DNA from: Methanothrix harundinacea 6Ac
Lineage (GTDB): Archaea; Halobacteriota; Methanosarcinia; Methanotrichales; Methanotrichaceae
Assembly: GCF_000235565.1 (NCBI RefSeq)
Contig: NC_017527.1
Location: forward strand, 1,488,001 to 1,552,000
Direction: 5' to 3'
Length of the DNA stretch: 64,000 nucleotides
The stretch's first letter is position 1; each line of letters begins with the position of its first letter. The notes under the pieces were generated by a model, which saw nothing but the letters and a program-made list of their open reading frames with translations, searched no databases and was not told the DNA's origin. A program made the translations under genes and the position numbers. Positions 30,224-51,540 of this stretch are shown here, one piece after another.

Positions 30224-31939
30224 TTGACAACTGCAAATGATGTCTTGGCAGCCCTGCAGTCGGCCTTTCCGGGAGTGATCGAGGAGTCCAAGGTCGGTCC
30301 CGAACGGCAGCTCTGGGCCACCATCAAGCCGGACAGGATCGTGGACGTATGTAAGTACCTGAGGGACAACCACGGCTTCGACCACTACTCCGGCGCCGTC
30401 GGCGTGGACAGGATCAACGAGGGCCTCTTCGAGGTGACGGAGATGCTGGCGAGCCACGGCTCCCACCAGGTGGTGGCGCTCCTGAAGGTGAAGACCAAGA
30501 GGGAGAGCCCGTCGGTCAAGTCCCTGACGGGGCTCTACTGGAACGCCAACTGGTACGAGCGGGAGATCTGGGAGATGCTGGGGATCAACTTCGAAGGACA
30601 CCCTGAGCTCTATCCCCTCCTCCTCGCCGACGAGCTGGTGGGGGTCTGGCCCTGGAGGAAGGACTTCCTCGGCTACCCCGACTACACCACCGCCGACAGG
30701 GCGATAGAGAAGGTCAATGCCGAGGGGTACACCGATTATTCCTTCAGACCCACCGAGGCTGAGATCAAGGCGGGGACCGTCCCGGTGGAGAGGCCGAAGT
30801 ACCCCACCTTCCGGGAGCGGGAGGAGATGGAGATCAAAGGCAGCTCTGAGATGATCCTCCACATGGGCCCCCAGCACGCCGTCGTCCCCGGCCCCTTCCT
30901 CCTGGATCTCCTGGTGGACGGGGAGAGGGTGAAGAAGGCCTTCCTGGACGTGGGCTACATCCACAAGGGGATCGAGAAGATCATGGAGAACCGGACCTAC
31001 CAGCAGGGGATCCCCATCACCGACAGGCTCTGCTACATGGCCGCCATCACCAACAACGAGGCCTACTGTGGAGCCGTGGAGAGGCTCCTCGGAATCGAGG
31101 CTCCCGAGAGGGCCCAGTACATCCGGATGATCCTCCAGGAGCTCTCGAGGATCCAGAGCCACCTCCTGGGCACCGGCGAGTTTCTCACCCTCATCGCGTC
31201 CGCCGTCTACTCGCCCTTCCTCTACATGATCATCGACCGGGAGGACGTCTTAACCTGCATCGAGAGCGTCACCGGAGCGAGGATCAACCACAGCTTCGTC
31301 CGCTTCGGCGGGGTCCGAAACGACCTTCCTGACGGCTTCAAGGACATGACCCTGGACACCCTCAAGATGATCCGGGAGAAGACCGCGGAGTACAAGGATC
31401 TCTTCTCTTCCGACAGCATCTACCGGAAGAGGATGGAGGGGATCGGGACCCTCTCGCCCCAGGATGCTAGGAGGCTCGGAGTTTCAGGCCCGCCCCTGAG
31501 GGCGTCGGACACCCCCTACGACATGAGGCGGGAAGATCCTTACCTCCTCTACCGGGATATGGACTTCGAGGTGATCACCAGGAAGGAGGGAGACTCCAAG
31601 GCTCGGGTCGAGGTGAGGCTCGACGAGATCCTGGAGAGCTGCTACATCATAGAGCAGTGCCTCGACCAGATCCCGAACGGTCCCATCATGGCCGAGGGCG
31701 TCCCCAAGAAGATCAAGCCCGAGCCTGGCGAGGCCTACTACCGCGTCGAAGACCATCGGGGAGAGATGGGATTCTTCGTGGTGAGCGACGGGTCCGACAA
31801 ACCGGTGAAGGTGAAGGCTCGAGGTCCCGTCTACGCCTACTTCCAGGCCCTTCCCCCGCTCCTGGAGGGGGTATACATAGCCGACGTGGTCGCCATCGCG
31901 GGCAGCATGGACGCTTGCACCAGCGAGGTGGACAGGTAG
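30224..31939 (+). CDS. fpoCD: F420H2 dehydrogenase fused subunits C and D
   Basis: A 571-residue protein in which a NuoC-like domain (residues about 1-190; YWNANWYEREIWEMLGI, LLLADELVGVWPWRKDF) is joined to a NuoD-like domain (about 205-571; MGPQHAVVPGPFLLDLL, VGYIHKGIEK, ELSRIQSHLLGTGEF). In the well-studied Methanosarcina mazei operon fpoC and fpoD are separate, whereas E. coli has a similar NuoCD fusion. No stop or ribosome site separates the two parts. The D part forms the quinone-like binding site with FpoB and FpoH. TTG start behind GAGGAGGAG. Confidence 0.93.
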   Translation: MTTANDVLAALQSAFPGVIEESKVGPERQLWATIKPDRIVDVCKYLRDNHGFDHYSGAVGVDRINEGLFEVTEMLASHGSHQVVALLKVKTKRESPSVKSLTGLYWNANWYEREIWEMLGINFEGHPELYPLLLADELVGVWPWRKDFLGYPDYTTADRAIEKVNAEGYTDYSFRPTEAEIKAGTVPVERPKYPTFREREEMEIKGSSEMILHMGPQHAVVPGPFLLDLLVDGERVKKAFLDVGYIHKGIEKIMENRTYQQGIPITDRLCYMAAITNNEAYCGAVERLLGIEAPERAQYIRMILQELSRIQSHLLGTGEFLTLIASAVYSPFLYMIIDREDVLTCIESVTGARINHSFVRFGGVRNDLPDGFKDMTLDTLKMIREKTAEYKDLFSSDSIYRKRMEGIGTLSPQDARRLGVSGPPLRASDTPYDMRREDPYLLYRDMDFEVITRKEGDSKARVEVRLDEILESCYIIEQCLDQIPNGPIMAEGVPKKIKPEPGEAYYRVEDHRGEMGFFVVSDGSDKPVKVKARGPVYAYFQALPPLLEGVYIADVVAIAGSMDACTSEVDR

Positions 31940-31951
31940 GAGGGAACGAAC

Positions 31952-32995
31952 TTGGTATTATCTGCGATCACAGAATTTGCAGCCCAGGAGCCTAAGATAT
32001 ACGCTCTGATCATCGGGCTCATCGCCGCCGCCATCCTCGCCTCCGTCATCAACGTGGTGGCGATGCTCTTGGTCTGGCTCGAGAGGAAGGTCATGGGCGA
32101 CTTTCAGGCTCGGTACGGGCCGAACAGGGTCGGCGGCCGGTGGGGCGTCCTTCAGCTCGGCGCTGACGCCATCAAGCTATTCACAAAAGAGGATGTCATC
32201 CCCCGGGGAGCGGACAAGCCCGTCTTTGTCTGGGCTCCCATCGTGGCGGTGGCGACGACTATGCTGGTGGCGGGGGCCCTCCCCTTCGGAGCCGTGATCA
32301 TAGACGGCAGAGAGATCCCCCTGGTGGTGGCCAACATGGACATCAGCGCCTTCTACATCGAAGCGGCGCTGAGCATCATGGCGATATCCGCCTTCATGGC
32401 TGGCTGGTCCTCCAACAACAAGTACTCGATGCTGGGAGCCTTTCGAGGCATCGCCAGGATGATCGCGTACGAGGTTCCGATGGGGGTCTGCGTCATCAGC
32501 GTCGCCATCATGGCCCACAGCCTGAACGTGGTGGAGATCGTCCATGCCCAGCAGGGGATCTGGTTTGCCCTGGCCCAGCCGATAGGTTTTGTCATCTTCG
32601 GCATCGCCCTCATCACGGACTTGGGGAGGATGCCCTTCGACCAGACCGAGGCTGAAGAGGAGATCATAGCCGGCTACAACACAGAGTACAGCGGCATCCG
32701 GTTCGGCCTCCTCTACTTCCAGGAGTATATCGTGATGCTCCTCGGGTCGATCCTCCTCGTCCACCTCTACCTCGGTGGCTGGAACGGCCCCGTCATCCCG
32801 GTGATCTCCTTCATATCACCTATGATCTGGTTCTTCATGAAGCTCGTCATAGTGCTGGTGGCCCTGATATGGATCAGGGTATCTCTGCCGCGGTTCAGGA
32901 TAGACCAGGTCACGGACCTGGGATGGAAGATCCTTCTGCCCCTCTCGATGGTCAACCTCGGATGGGCGGTCGCCGTGGGGCTTTACTTCGCATGA
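31952..32995 (+). CDS. fpoH: F420H2 dehydrogenase subunit H
   Basis: A 347-residue membrane subunit homologous to NuoH, with eight or so helices and the conserved LVWLERKVMGDFQARYGPNR motif after the first. It anchors the soluble arm and lines the methanophenazine channel. TTG start behind GTAGGAGGG; fpoI follows after about ten bases. Confidence 0.95.
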   Translation: MVLSAITEFAAQEPKIYALIIGLIAAAILASVINVVAMLLVWLERKVMGDFQARYGPNRVGGRWGVLQLGADAIKLFTKEDVIPRGADKPVFVWAPIVAVATTMLVAGALPFGAVIIDGREIPLVVANMDISAFYIEAALSIMAISAFMAGWSSNNKYSMLGAFRGIARMIAYEVPMGVCVISVAIMAHSLNVVEIVHAQQGIWFALAQPIGFVIFGIALITDLGRMPFDQTEAEEEIIAGYNTEYSGIRFGLLYFQEYIVMLLGSILLVHLYLGGWNGPVIPVISFISPMIWFFMKLVIVLVALIWIRVSLPRFRIDQVTDLGWKILLPLSMVNLGWAVAVGLYFA

Positions 32996-34143: not shown

Positions 34144-34165
34144 CGGGGTGGAGGGAGGAAAAGAG

Positions 34166-34468
34166 ATGATCCCACTGGTGCTATACGTGCTGCTGGCGTC
34201 GGCGATGTTCACCATCGGCCTTTATGGCCTTCTGACCCAGCGGAACGGTATCAAGCTTATGATGTGCGTGGAGATCCTGCTGAACAGCGCAAACATCAAT
34301 CTGGTGGCGTTCTCGGCTTACCTGCCCAACGTAAACGGCCAGGTCTTCGCCCTGTTCTCCATCGCCCTCGCCGCTGCGGAGGCGGGCGTTGGATTTGCCA
34401 TATTGATCACGCTGTACAGGCTGTACGGAACCATAGAACTGGACAACATCAACGCTCTGAGGTGGTAA
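34166..34468 (+). CDS. fpoK: F420H2 dehydrogenase subunit K
   Basis: A 100-residue three-helix protein homologous to NuoK ([17 protein letters not shown], conserved Glu in the second helix, and [17 protein letters not shown] with the second membrane Glu). The start ATG at 34166 is preferred over GTG 34148 because GAGGGAGGAA lies just before it and the family starts here. Confidence 0.93.
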
Positions 34469-49968: not shown

Positions 49969-50049
49969 TCATGCTTTGACGTAGCGGACTAGGTAGATCC
50001 AGAACGCTATGCCAAGGACGATGATGGCTGCCAGGATCGTACCAATCAC
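49969..50049 (-). CDS. 26-residue membrane micro-protein
   Basis: GTG start behind a perfect GGAGGTGAT ribosome site, then 26 codons coding one hydrophobic helix (IGTILAAIIVLGIAFWIYLV) and a basic end (RYVKA), then TGA. Composition, ribosome site and helix length all fit a real single-pass membrane peptide. Function unknown; nearby genes give no hint. Too short for routine gene finders. Confidence 0.6.
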   Translation of the reverse strand: MIGTILAAIIVLGIAFWIYLVRYVKA

Positions 50050-50475
50050 TTTTATCACCTCCAGGACTATTATTGCCATTACATTAATTCGTCTCAACGG
50101 TTAAGTACCTTTTCTCCTCCGGCAGGAGAAGATCACCAAGATCGAGGCGGCGGATCCGCGCCGCGATGCGGCGGCCGGGAGGAGGGCTGGAGCTTCCGCC
50201 CGGCGATGCCCGGAATAGTTGTGGAAGGATCCTTCCCCTTCGGCGCCGCAGATGAAAGGGGATGATCTTCACGGCGTTATCACCGGCGCTTAAGTCATCA
50301 ATCCCCTCTCGGCTTCGAGCCCCGAACGAAGTCGAAATACGGCTCTCTAATATCCGCGATCTTGAAAGGAGGGAGGAGCAAAAGTCGTTATAGGAGGGTA
50401 GAGGGAGAGAATTAGCCTACGACTTTTGCCACTTACCTTTTACGGCAATTAACGAATATATACTTTTCGGTTCCT
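50050..50475. other. Intergenic region with hairpin RNA candidate
   Basis: About 425 bases between the micro-protein and trm5. The part near 50276-50340 is GC-rich with short inverted repeats (CTTCG/CGAAG near 50312-50331). The part near 50360-50470 holds the hairpin RNA and TATA element listed separately. No other gene is supported. Confidence 0.5.
50360..50433 (-). ncRNA. Candidate hairpin sRNA with anti-SD sequence
   Basis: On the minus strand an 11-bp perfect stem (GCAAAAGTCGT with ACGACTTTTGC, 50378-50429) encloses a 30-base pyrimidine-rich loop containing CCCTCCTAT; the 3' side continues CTCCTCCCTCCTTTC. These match anti-Shine-Dalgarno sequence. A TATA-like AAGTATATATTCG lies about 25 bases upstream, at 50453-50466. 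It could be an independent small RNA or a 3' structure of the trm5 transcript. Confidence 0.35.
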
Positions 50476-51540
50476 CTAGGGTCCCGGCCCCGGCCTTCCG
50501 CCCCCTTCGGCCGCCACTCTCTTGTGAACTGCGAAGTCGATGACGATGTTGTACTGGTGGGGGGCGTAGCTCCGGACCACCCCTCGGCGGAGGATCTCGG
50601 CCTTGACGCCGGAGGCAGAAGCCGCCTCTTCGACGAAAGCCGTATCCCTGCCGAAGAGGTCGTCCTCGGGGGCGATGGCGTAGTAGTGGACGACCCCGCC
50701 GTCCTTCGCGACTTTCATCGCCGCCCCCAGGAAGTCGCGGGCGGAGTGGGGCAGGTTCATGATGACCCGGTCGGCCCGGTTCGCGAACTCTTCCGCGAGG
50801 TCCGCGGCGTCCGCCTCCAGAATGACCATATCGGTGATCCTGTTGAGGTTGGCGTTCTCCCGGAGGAGCCTCACAGCGTCGGGGTTCTTGTCGACGGCGA
50901 CGACCCTCGCCCCCCGCTTCGCTATGAGGAGGGCGAAGGGGCCGACCCCGGCGAACATGTCGACGGCCGCCTCCCCCCGCCTCACCAGGCTTGCGACTCT
51001 CAGCCGCTCGGTGCCGAGGCGCGGGGTGAAGTAGGCCCGCTCCAGGTCGATTCTGTACCTCAAACCGTGCTCCCTGTGGACGGTCGTCGTCCGCGCCTCC
51101 CCGGCGACGTGTTCGAAACGCCGAGTCCGGTACTCCCCCTCCACCGCCGTCAGGGGCGATATCACCGCCCGGACGTTCCTGTGGACGGCGATGATGGCGG
51201 CGGCCGCCTCCTGATCCGCCCCCTCCAGGATGGCTATATCCCCCACCACCTCGAAGGAGGCTTTTCGGCCGAGGAGCCCCTCCACCGTCTCCCTCGGCTC
51301 CTCCTCACGAAACTCCGCCTCGACGAGGTCGAACTCTCCGAGGCTGGAAAGCTCCTCCTTCGCCTCGCGGGAGAGCTCCAGGATCGGCATATAAAGGTCT
51401 TCGCCCTCGGAGCGGATCTTCCGCCCCGGATCGAAGGCCCCCATCTCGACGAGCCTCCGCCGAAAGACCTCCCCCTCCCTCCTCCGGACCTTCAGCCCCA
51501 GGGTCGACGCCATCTCAATACCACCCTTCTGCTCCCTCAC
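50476..51540 (-). CDS. trm5: tRNA (guanine-37-N1)-methyltransferase Trm5
   Basis: A 354-residue class I SAM methyltransferase that makes m1G37 in tRNA, preventing frameshifts. The N-terminal D1 domain (FEVVGDIAILEG), the tRNA-contact stretch (TVHREHGLRYRIDLERAYFTPRLGTER), the SAM motif DMFAGVGPFALLIAKRG and the catalytic-site NLPHSARDFL are all seen. Closer to the aTrm5b type by length. ATG 51513 or 51540 are both possible. The start overlaps the end of the upstream VWA gene by four bases. Confidence 0.92.
   Translation of the reverse strand: MREQKGGIEMASTLGLKVRRREGEVFRRRLVEMGAFDPGRKIRSEGEDLYMPILELSREAKEELSSLGEFDLVEAEFREEEPRETVEGLLGRKASFEVVGDIAILEGADQEAAAAIIAVHRNVRAVISPLTAVEGEYRTRRFEHVAGEARTTTVHREHGLRYRIDLERAYFTPRLGTERLRVASLVRRGEAAVDMFAGVGPFALLIAKRGARVVAVDKNPDAVRLLRENANLNRITDMVILEADAADLAEEFANRADRVIMNLPHSARDFLGAAMKVAKDGGVVHYYAIAPEDDLFGRDTAFVEEAASASGVKAEILRRGVVRSYAPHQYNIVIDFAVHKRVAAEGGGRPGPGP

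Follow-up and report, generated by a model that had tools for sequence, protein, structure and literature searches.

Putative sibling small RNAs with anti-Shine-Dalgarno motifs in Methanothrix harundinacea and related archaea

A hairpin element downstream of trm5

The window that we analyzed is a stretch of 64,000 nucleotides from the genome of Methanothrix harundinacea 6Ac, and all coordinates below are positions in it. Its minus strand carries trm5, a tRNA methyltransferase gene (50476-51540; Pfam TRM5-TYW2_MTfase and Trm5_N, and tblastn of the loci), followed by a feature at 50361-50472 that consists of a BRE/TATA promoter, a hairpin of 11-12 bp that closes a C/U loop of 30 nt, and a CUCCUCCCUCC tail. 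The trm5 stop codon lies directly upstream of the promoter, and this arrangement is kept in all eight genomes of genus g1 that were examined (excluding G005) and is also found in one genome of genus g8 (G015). An earlier note on this DNA had described a TATA element, a gap of about 25 bases, an 11-bp stem, a 30-base pyrimidine loop with CCCTCC, and a flank; we see all of them on the minus strand.

The core promoter (50455-50472, minus strand) is made of the BRE-like sequence ACCGAAAA and the TATA box GTATATATT (50463-50455). Between the TATA box and the predicted start lies a near-palindromic, operator-like block, TTCGTTAATTGCCGTA (50441-50456, minus strand), recognized by the position of its CG and by genome-wide matches to its consensus; this copy is one base off the strict consensus TCGNCNANTGNCGTA. 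The predicted small RNA (sRNA) is about 65-75 nt long and occupies 50361-50434 on the minus strand (covariance-model match 50364-50433), with both ends predicted, the start from a distance of about 26 nt to the TATA centre and the end from a CUUU run. The 5' arm of its stem, GGCAAAAGUCGU (50419-50430), begins 24 nt after the TATA box and is supported by sequence, covariation and folding; the 3' arm, ACGACUUUUGC (50378-50388), is supported by sequence and covariation. The arms enclose the 30-nt C/U-rich loop AGGCUAAUUCUCUCCCUCUACCCUCCUAUA (50389-50418), which contains CUCCC and CCCUCC, and are followed by the anti-Shine-Dalgarno tail UCCUCCCUCCUUUC (50364-50377), predicted to be single-stranded; loop and tail were identified by sequence and folding, and all four parts lie on the minus strand.

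The 70-nt minus-strand RNA folds with a predicted energy of -16.0 kcal/mol, against -6.2 for shuffled sequences (z -4.9; 0 of 200 shuffles as good). In this predicted fold the tail is unpaired, as is most of the loop; three additional pairs predicted inside the loop of this copy would hide part of one CCUCC. For a 96-nt minus-strand piece the z-score is -3.1. The plus strand folds too (z -2.6), so the strand cannot be read from folding by itself; it is given by the order of the sequence elements, BRE, TATA, spacer and stem. We considered an RNA from the plus strand and rejected it, as BRE and TATA in the aligned copies are placed to drive the C/U strand.

Downstream of the sRNA, on the same strand, a short ORF (49969-50079) corresponds to a peptide with a single membrane span (MAIIVLEVIKVIGTILAAIIVLGIAFWIYLVRYVKA); the sequence GGAGGTGATAAAA precedes an inner GTG of this ORF.

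Distribution, structure and promoter of the family

We refer to groups of genomes by number (f for families, g for genera); f1 is Methanotrichaceae, and the family and class names of the numbered groups are inferred. A DNA query of 161 nt found matches in 22 of 41 genomes: all nine of the same genus, 13 of the 16 from the rest of the family and none of the 16 from other families. A covariance model of the RNA only (R1), built from 20 aligned homologues and running from the start of the stem to the tail, matched all 50 Methanotrichaceae genomes, each several times, and, at a lax threshold (E up to 0.1), 124 of the 199 genomes of the class. Since homologues occur across a class of archaea, the hairpin feature is not a product of chance. 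The number of matches per genome includes reverse-strand readings of the same hairpin (for instance, six matches in the M. harundinacea genome, G000, represent four loci). Counted as distinct loci at E up to 0.5, there are four in this genome, five in G023 and 14 in G022, where one locus reaches no better than E 0.14. Each of the three thus holds at least two homologous copies, the hallmark of a sibling sRNA family. Tandem arrays also occur; in G018, for example, 0.5 kb holds four copies. In the rest of the class, Methanosarcinaceae and ANME-2 among it, a single copy is the usual case.

A second model (R2) was built from 61 sequences, its training including several of the genomes later matched. 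Applied to 294 genomes of the phylum, it matched 41 at E up to 0.01. Only two of these lie outside the class (E 0.0013 and 0.0035), and at least 14 genomes of the class had no R2 match. Two f3 genera that were new to R2, g13 and g14, share the hairpin, with a related loop and a TATA-like element. In g18, which we take to be Methanosarcina, there were few model matches and these were weak; the ones inspected (L088, L099 and L188) looked false or doubtful. A scan of named genomes for the stem pattern returned at least 80 loci. Among the listed loci scored with R2, 23 exceed 39 bits, with names that include Methanothrix, Methanosaeta, Methanotrichaceae, Methanolobus, Methanomethylovorans, Methanosarcinaceae and Methanosarcinales or ANME-2; the top bacterial hairpin among the scored loci reaches 36.1, and one Methanothrix locus only 31.6. 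The stem pattern also matches a palindrome of constant 41-base length in many Pseudomonas species. A covariance-model scan with Rfam 15 left the window without a match: no family reached its gathering threshold, hits around the element were at chance level, and 20 related loci returned tRNAs only. Judged by Rfam and by a search of the open-licence literature, the RNA family is apparently undescribed.

Other copies have various neighbors. Some tandem arrays lie close to genes for a kinase of the pfkB family and an aldolase of the DeoC/LacD type (L159, by Pfam; L160 and L167, by eye). A gene weakly matching AAA_3, and after it one with a GXGXG motif, comes immediately downstream of the arrays at L158 (by Pfam) and L160 (by eye). 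The single copy of two f3 genera adjoins a sodium:solute symporter gene (L165, by Pfam; L166, by eye), and a DUF2117 gene lies near single f3 copies (L166, by Pfam; L165, by eye).

Covariation in relatives, which the earlier note had named as a check, is present. The alignment (A3) has 61 rows, 60 of them distinct, with 41 sequences from Methanotrichaceae and 20 from four other families. It excludes L088, L099, L103 and L105 (judged false by eye), L074 and several near-duplicates, and L083 was reversed because its loop and TATA fit on the other strand. Across the alignment 93.5% of the cells are paired, and 8 of the 12 stem pairs have changed on both sides. There are 32 double-changed cells, compared with a mean of 13.9 after shuffling, and none of the five covariation measures was reached in 500 shuffles; shifting the partner columns lowers pairing to 34-54%. 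Compensatory changes include GGUAAAAG/CUUUUACC in f4 and AGCCG/CGGCU in f5. Wobble cells are numerous at three pairs (15 U-G, 15 G-U and 10 G-U), which fits an RNA rather than a DNA palindrome. The pair that closes the loop is frequently open (27 of 58 cells unpaired). The stem measures 10-12 bp in the family as a whole, and the loop between the arms ranges from 19 to 46 nt. Within Methanotrichaceae, 7 of the 10 predicted pairs are invariant in 20 sequences and no double change occurs. The stem being near-invariant there, some constraint on the sequence itself acts as well, and most of the covariation is contributed by distant copies.

The C/U motifs are conserved as well. Among the 41 Methanotrichaceae sequences, CCUCC occurs in 36 loops (7.1 expected from shuffling) and in 30 tails (6.7 expected), so that an unpaired anti-Shine-Dalgarno motif, as known from trans-acting sRNAs of this kind, is kept in relatives. 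It is also found in all three f5 loops and in none of the eight f4, seven f3 and two f2 loops, all of which have CCCCUC instead. The anti-Shine-Dalgarno motif that the earlier note proposed is thus borne out in the loop and tail of Methanotrichaceae and is less exact in f3 and f4; read from the sequences, the match would be exact in two families (f1 and f5) and approximate in the others. Further conserved blocks in other families, AUAUCCCGUUCAU and GUUCUCGUCAU, suggest more specific partners.

R1 includes no promoter, and the sequence upstream therefore provides a test outside the model. Of 34 Methanotrichaceae copies that were not used to build R1, 33 have a CG 22-24 nt ahead of the stem (4.3 expected from shuffling) and 32 have a TATA-like element upstream of the CG (4.2 expected); all 18 copies of the building set have both. 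The CG is found at this distance in 51 of 52 Methanotrichaceae regions and in 4 of 4 f5 regions. A TATA-like element at a fixed distance is present in 50 of 52 f1, 4 of 4 f5, 7 of 7 f3, 9 of 9 f4 and 2 of 2 f2 regions, although in f4 it reads CTTAATAAA, unlike a classic TATA box. By sequence, the copies appear to have the independent promoter typical of trans-acting anti-Shine-Dalgarno sRNAs.

An alignment of upstream regions from f1 and f5, 56 in all, reads CCGAAA, TATA and TTCGnCRAWTGnCGTA; it is anchored on the CG, which biases its column counts, whereas the fixed-distance test is unanchored. A fuller form of the block, CG.Y.A.YG at the same distance from the stem, occurs in 34 of 52 f1 and 2 of 4 f5 regions. 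The 18 regions of f2-f4 lack it, although all of them have TATA-like elements. As a whole, the promoter block is absent from f4 and f2 and partial in f3. We searched 11 genomes for TCGNCNANTGNCGTA and obtained 26 matches in eight genomes, compared with 10 for the reversed control. Of these matches, 22 directly precede a model match, one precedes a different hairpin (L141 in G008) and three lie elsewhere, which suggests that the block consensus is nearly confined to these RNA genes. Its palindromic score is modestly above that of shuffles (mean 3.98 of 6; highest shuffled mean 3.79). We infer that a dedicated transcription factor may act at the block. MsvR was considered as the regulator; its operator is described as TTCGN7-9CGAA (PMC3729527), and the block, typically TTCG-N8-CGTA in Methanotrichaceae, does not fit it there. 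A few f3 copies, such as L093 and L096, read TTCG-N7-CGAA.

The different hairpin at L141 (G008:C16:31319) has a counterpart at L169. At both loci the same block and TATA precede a hairpin (GGCATGTAACGTGCC) with CCCCCCTCC and runs of CCTCC. An AAA ATPase-like gene, so named by eye, follows closely on that strand. It could be a variant sRNA or a leader.

Candidate targets in the fpo operon

The fpo operon, for an F420H2 dehydrogenase-like proton pump, provides the most promising candidate target. The ribosome site GGAGGGAGGA (34150-34159, plus strand) of an fpoK-like gene of the NuoK family (34166-34468, plus strand; Pfam Oxidored_q2) is the exact complement, over 10 nt, of the copy's tail UCCUCCCUCC, and the loop of a sibling copy complements it over 13 nt. 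The mRNA of this gene is a candidate target. A weaker candidate is the ribosome site UAGGAGGGA (31937-31945, plus strand) of the operon's gene at 31952-32995, the start of which was set by our own rule; GGAGGGA is present there in 7 of 14 genomes, and at the operon's gene at 30224 in 6 of 14.

In 14 Methanotrichaceae genomes from seven genera, fpoK always keeps GGAGGGA, and over 8-13 nt its site perfectly complements an sRNA copy from its own genome. Counted against the one to four sRNA copies taken per genome, the longest perfect match to fpoK averages 10.1 nt and is at least 9 nt in 13 of the 14 genomes. For eight other genes of the operon the longest match averages 5.4-7.9 nt, and for shuffled segments the mean is 6.7 nt, with at most 7.7 in 500 trials. 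GGAGGGA occurs in 8 of 478 ribosome sites sampled from four genomes, and three of these eight are fpoK sites; gene starts in this sample follow our own rule, which misses fpoK of G023. Among f3-f5 genomes, fpoK is without GGAGGGA in 15 of 16, the exception being G157 of f5. In G023, a stretch of 14 nt that runs to the start codon of fpoA complements a copy; the ribosome site of fpoA differs in the other genera read.

Among the 65 predicted genes of the window, fpoK forms one of the two most stable duplexes, a rank that is itself selected (best two of 65), so that only the other genomes, which share ancestry, provide a test. Over the 65 genes, duplex energies do not separate from shuffles (real -13.2; mean -12.7 over 50 shuffles; best shuffle -13.8). 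Genes that match a copy over at least the length seen for fpoK, fpoK included, number 7 of 142 in G022 and 6 of 147 in G023.

We also looked for complements of the loops with up to three mismatches. For the f5 loop, the search of four f5 genomes returned the sRNA itself and 30 other places, compared with 38 for the reversed control. For the f4 loop, five f4 genomes gave 16 other places, an excess over the 2 of the control. Inspection of 15 of these 46 non-self places put 11 in open frames of at least 100 aa and 4 outside, with no consistent target; one of the four (L127, G140), a single case, lies just before an ATG. The pattern AGGAGGGAG-N2-9-ATG has 104 matches in eight genomes and 43 in the reversed control, and 40 of the 104 places, when inspected, belonged to scattered genes (for instance hdrB-like and histone genes, by eye) with no consistent set.

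Target prediction against GGAGG leaders, another check named in the earlier note, gave a mixed picture, with fpoK in all 14 of the Methanotrichaceae genomes but with non-separating energies and no target found in f3-f5. Within Methanotrichaceae, the sequences point to the fpo operon, and above all to the fpoK site within the polycistronic mRNA, as being among the most likely targets.

At L394 and L395 (G023 and G021), the start of fpoK aligns to ACG ATC CCG after AAGGAGGGAGAGAT. No in-frame ATG, GTG or TTG follows AAGGAGGGAGAGAT there, and the gene may use an unusual start codon.

Interpretation and relation to known systems

By comparison of genomes, the predicted gene, its promoter, the hairpin, the conserved C/U motifs and, in one family, the complementarity to the fpoK site can be established as features of the sequence. 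We consider it probable that the element is an sRNA gene belonging to a multi-copy family of siblings, whose C/U loop and tail block ribosome sites of the GGAGGG type. A transcription factor bound at the promoter block would switch the siblings on together. The archaeal promoter would then drive a short RNA in which a covarying hairpin of 10-12 bp presents the C/U-rich loop, followed in Methanotrichaceae by the single-stranded C/U-rich tail. By pairing with ribosome sites of the GGAGGG type, loop and tail would exclude the 30S subunit and so reduce translation. The siblings would probably act by masking, and with the fpo operon among the mRNAs affected, they would serve to tune the main complex of energy conservation. 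The proposal of the earlier note, a minus-strand hairpin sRNA that may pair with GGAGG sites, gains support from the covariation, from the TATA and block at fixed distances, and from the conservation of CCUCC.

The most serious alternative, in our view an unlikely one, is a real sRNA that acts through a bound protein rather than by pairing with mRNA, either as a sponge for a pyrimidine-binding protein or as a scaffold read at the near-invariant stem GGCAAAAGUC/GACUUUUGCC. It would account for Methanotrichaceae arms that are constant beyond the needs of pairing, for f3 and f4 loops that keep CCCCUC and blocks such as CGUCAU rather than an exact anti-Shine-Dalgarno motif, and for duplex energies that do not discriminate. 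Against it stand CCUCC, conserved in both loop and tail of f1, and complementarity to the fpoK site, kept in 14 genomes. A DNA element, in which the arms are half-sites for a transcription factor and no functional RNA is made, seems very improbable. The arms are indeed well-conserved inverted repeats, and a near-palindromic block adjoins the TATA box; changes in the arms, however, preserve RNA pairing including G-U wobble, the distance between the arms varies widely, and motifs in the loop are conserved.

Two further alternatives concern the origin of the element. The same-strand trm5 stop immediately upstream throughout the g1 genomes examined might suggest a 3' end or terminator of trm5 and its read-through product, a case that the earlier note regarded as refuting its proposal. 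Copies far from trm5, where siblings adjoin other genes, argue against it, as do the BRE/TATA of the element itself and a 30-nt loop unlike that of a compact terminator, and we give it hardly any weight. We also see little chance that the copies belong to a small element that is mobile or repetitive. Such an element could be expected to leave dispersed copies and tandem arrays in one genome, but the trm5-linked position is kept across g1 and in G015 of g8, changes in the stem are compensatory, and the flanks diverge immediately outside the promoter and RNA.

The reading as siblings that mask ribosome sites can be extended to a class-wide regulon. In Methanotrichaceae one dedicated factor, recognizing the block that is nearly confined to these genes, would control a battery of siblings that throttles the translation of Fpo, through internal fpoK and fpoH sites, and of other mRNAs of the GGAGGG type, with tail and fpoK site co-evolving between genera. 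This extension is tentative, and we regard it as rather doubtful.

Methanothrix is a major acetate-consuming methane maker, and the family offers a testable handle on how methanogens, and the ANME-2 lineages related to them, regulate energy conservation at the post-transcriptional level. We found no study of Methanothrix sRNAs in the open-licence literature searched. To our knowledge, a conserved multi-copy family with a shared block would be the first sibling anti-Shine-Dalgarno sRNA family in archaea. Locus L094 lies in what we take to be the genome of Methanolobus psychrophilus. For this species a 2015 study describes 195 sRNAs, including nine that are conserved and induced by cold (PMC5378194). 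The L094 locus may be among these sRNAs, in which case the family would in part have been detected as transcripts already.

Several known systems resemble the family in its proposed way of working, and we do not claim common descent with sRNA41, SisA-D or NmsR. In archaea, sRNA162 of Methanosarcina mazei is reportedly a trans-acting sRNA. From the same species, sRNA41 is described as a proposed masker of ribosome sites in the polycistronic mRNA of ACDS, an energy-metabolism operon (PMC5867862), which is similar, by description, to what we suggest for Methanothrix. The trans-acting sRNA154 of M. mazei carries an anti-RBS sequence in its loop 2, but it has two stem-loops and is nitrogen-regulated according to the same source. 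Among bacteria, the alpha-R8 family, SisA-D of Caulobacter crescentus, has several siblings per genome that share the single-stranded anti-Shine-Dalgarno 10-mer UUUCCUCCCU (PMC12559287); likened by description, its Methanothrix counterpart is CUCCCUCCUUU. SisA-D are bacterial and were studied with Hfq, whereas the Methanothrix family has an archaeal BRE/TATA promoter, anti-Shine-Dalgarno motifs in both loop and tail, and a conserved promoter block. NmsRA and NmsRB of Neisseria meningitidis are tandem siblings with two anti-Shine-Dalgarno motifs that repress several metabolic mRNAs, as described in PMC5362039. This bacterial pair comprises two copies with three stem-loops, while the archaeal family has one hairpin and up to 14 loci per genome.
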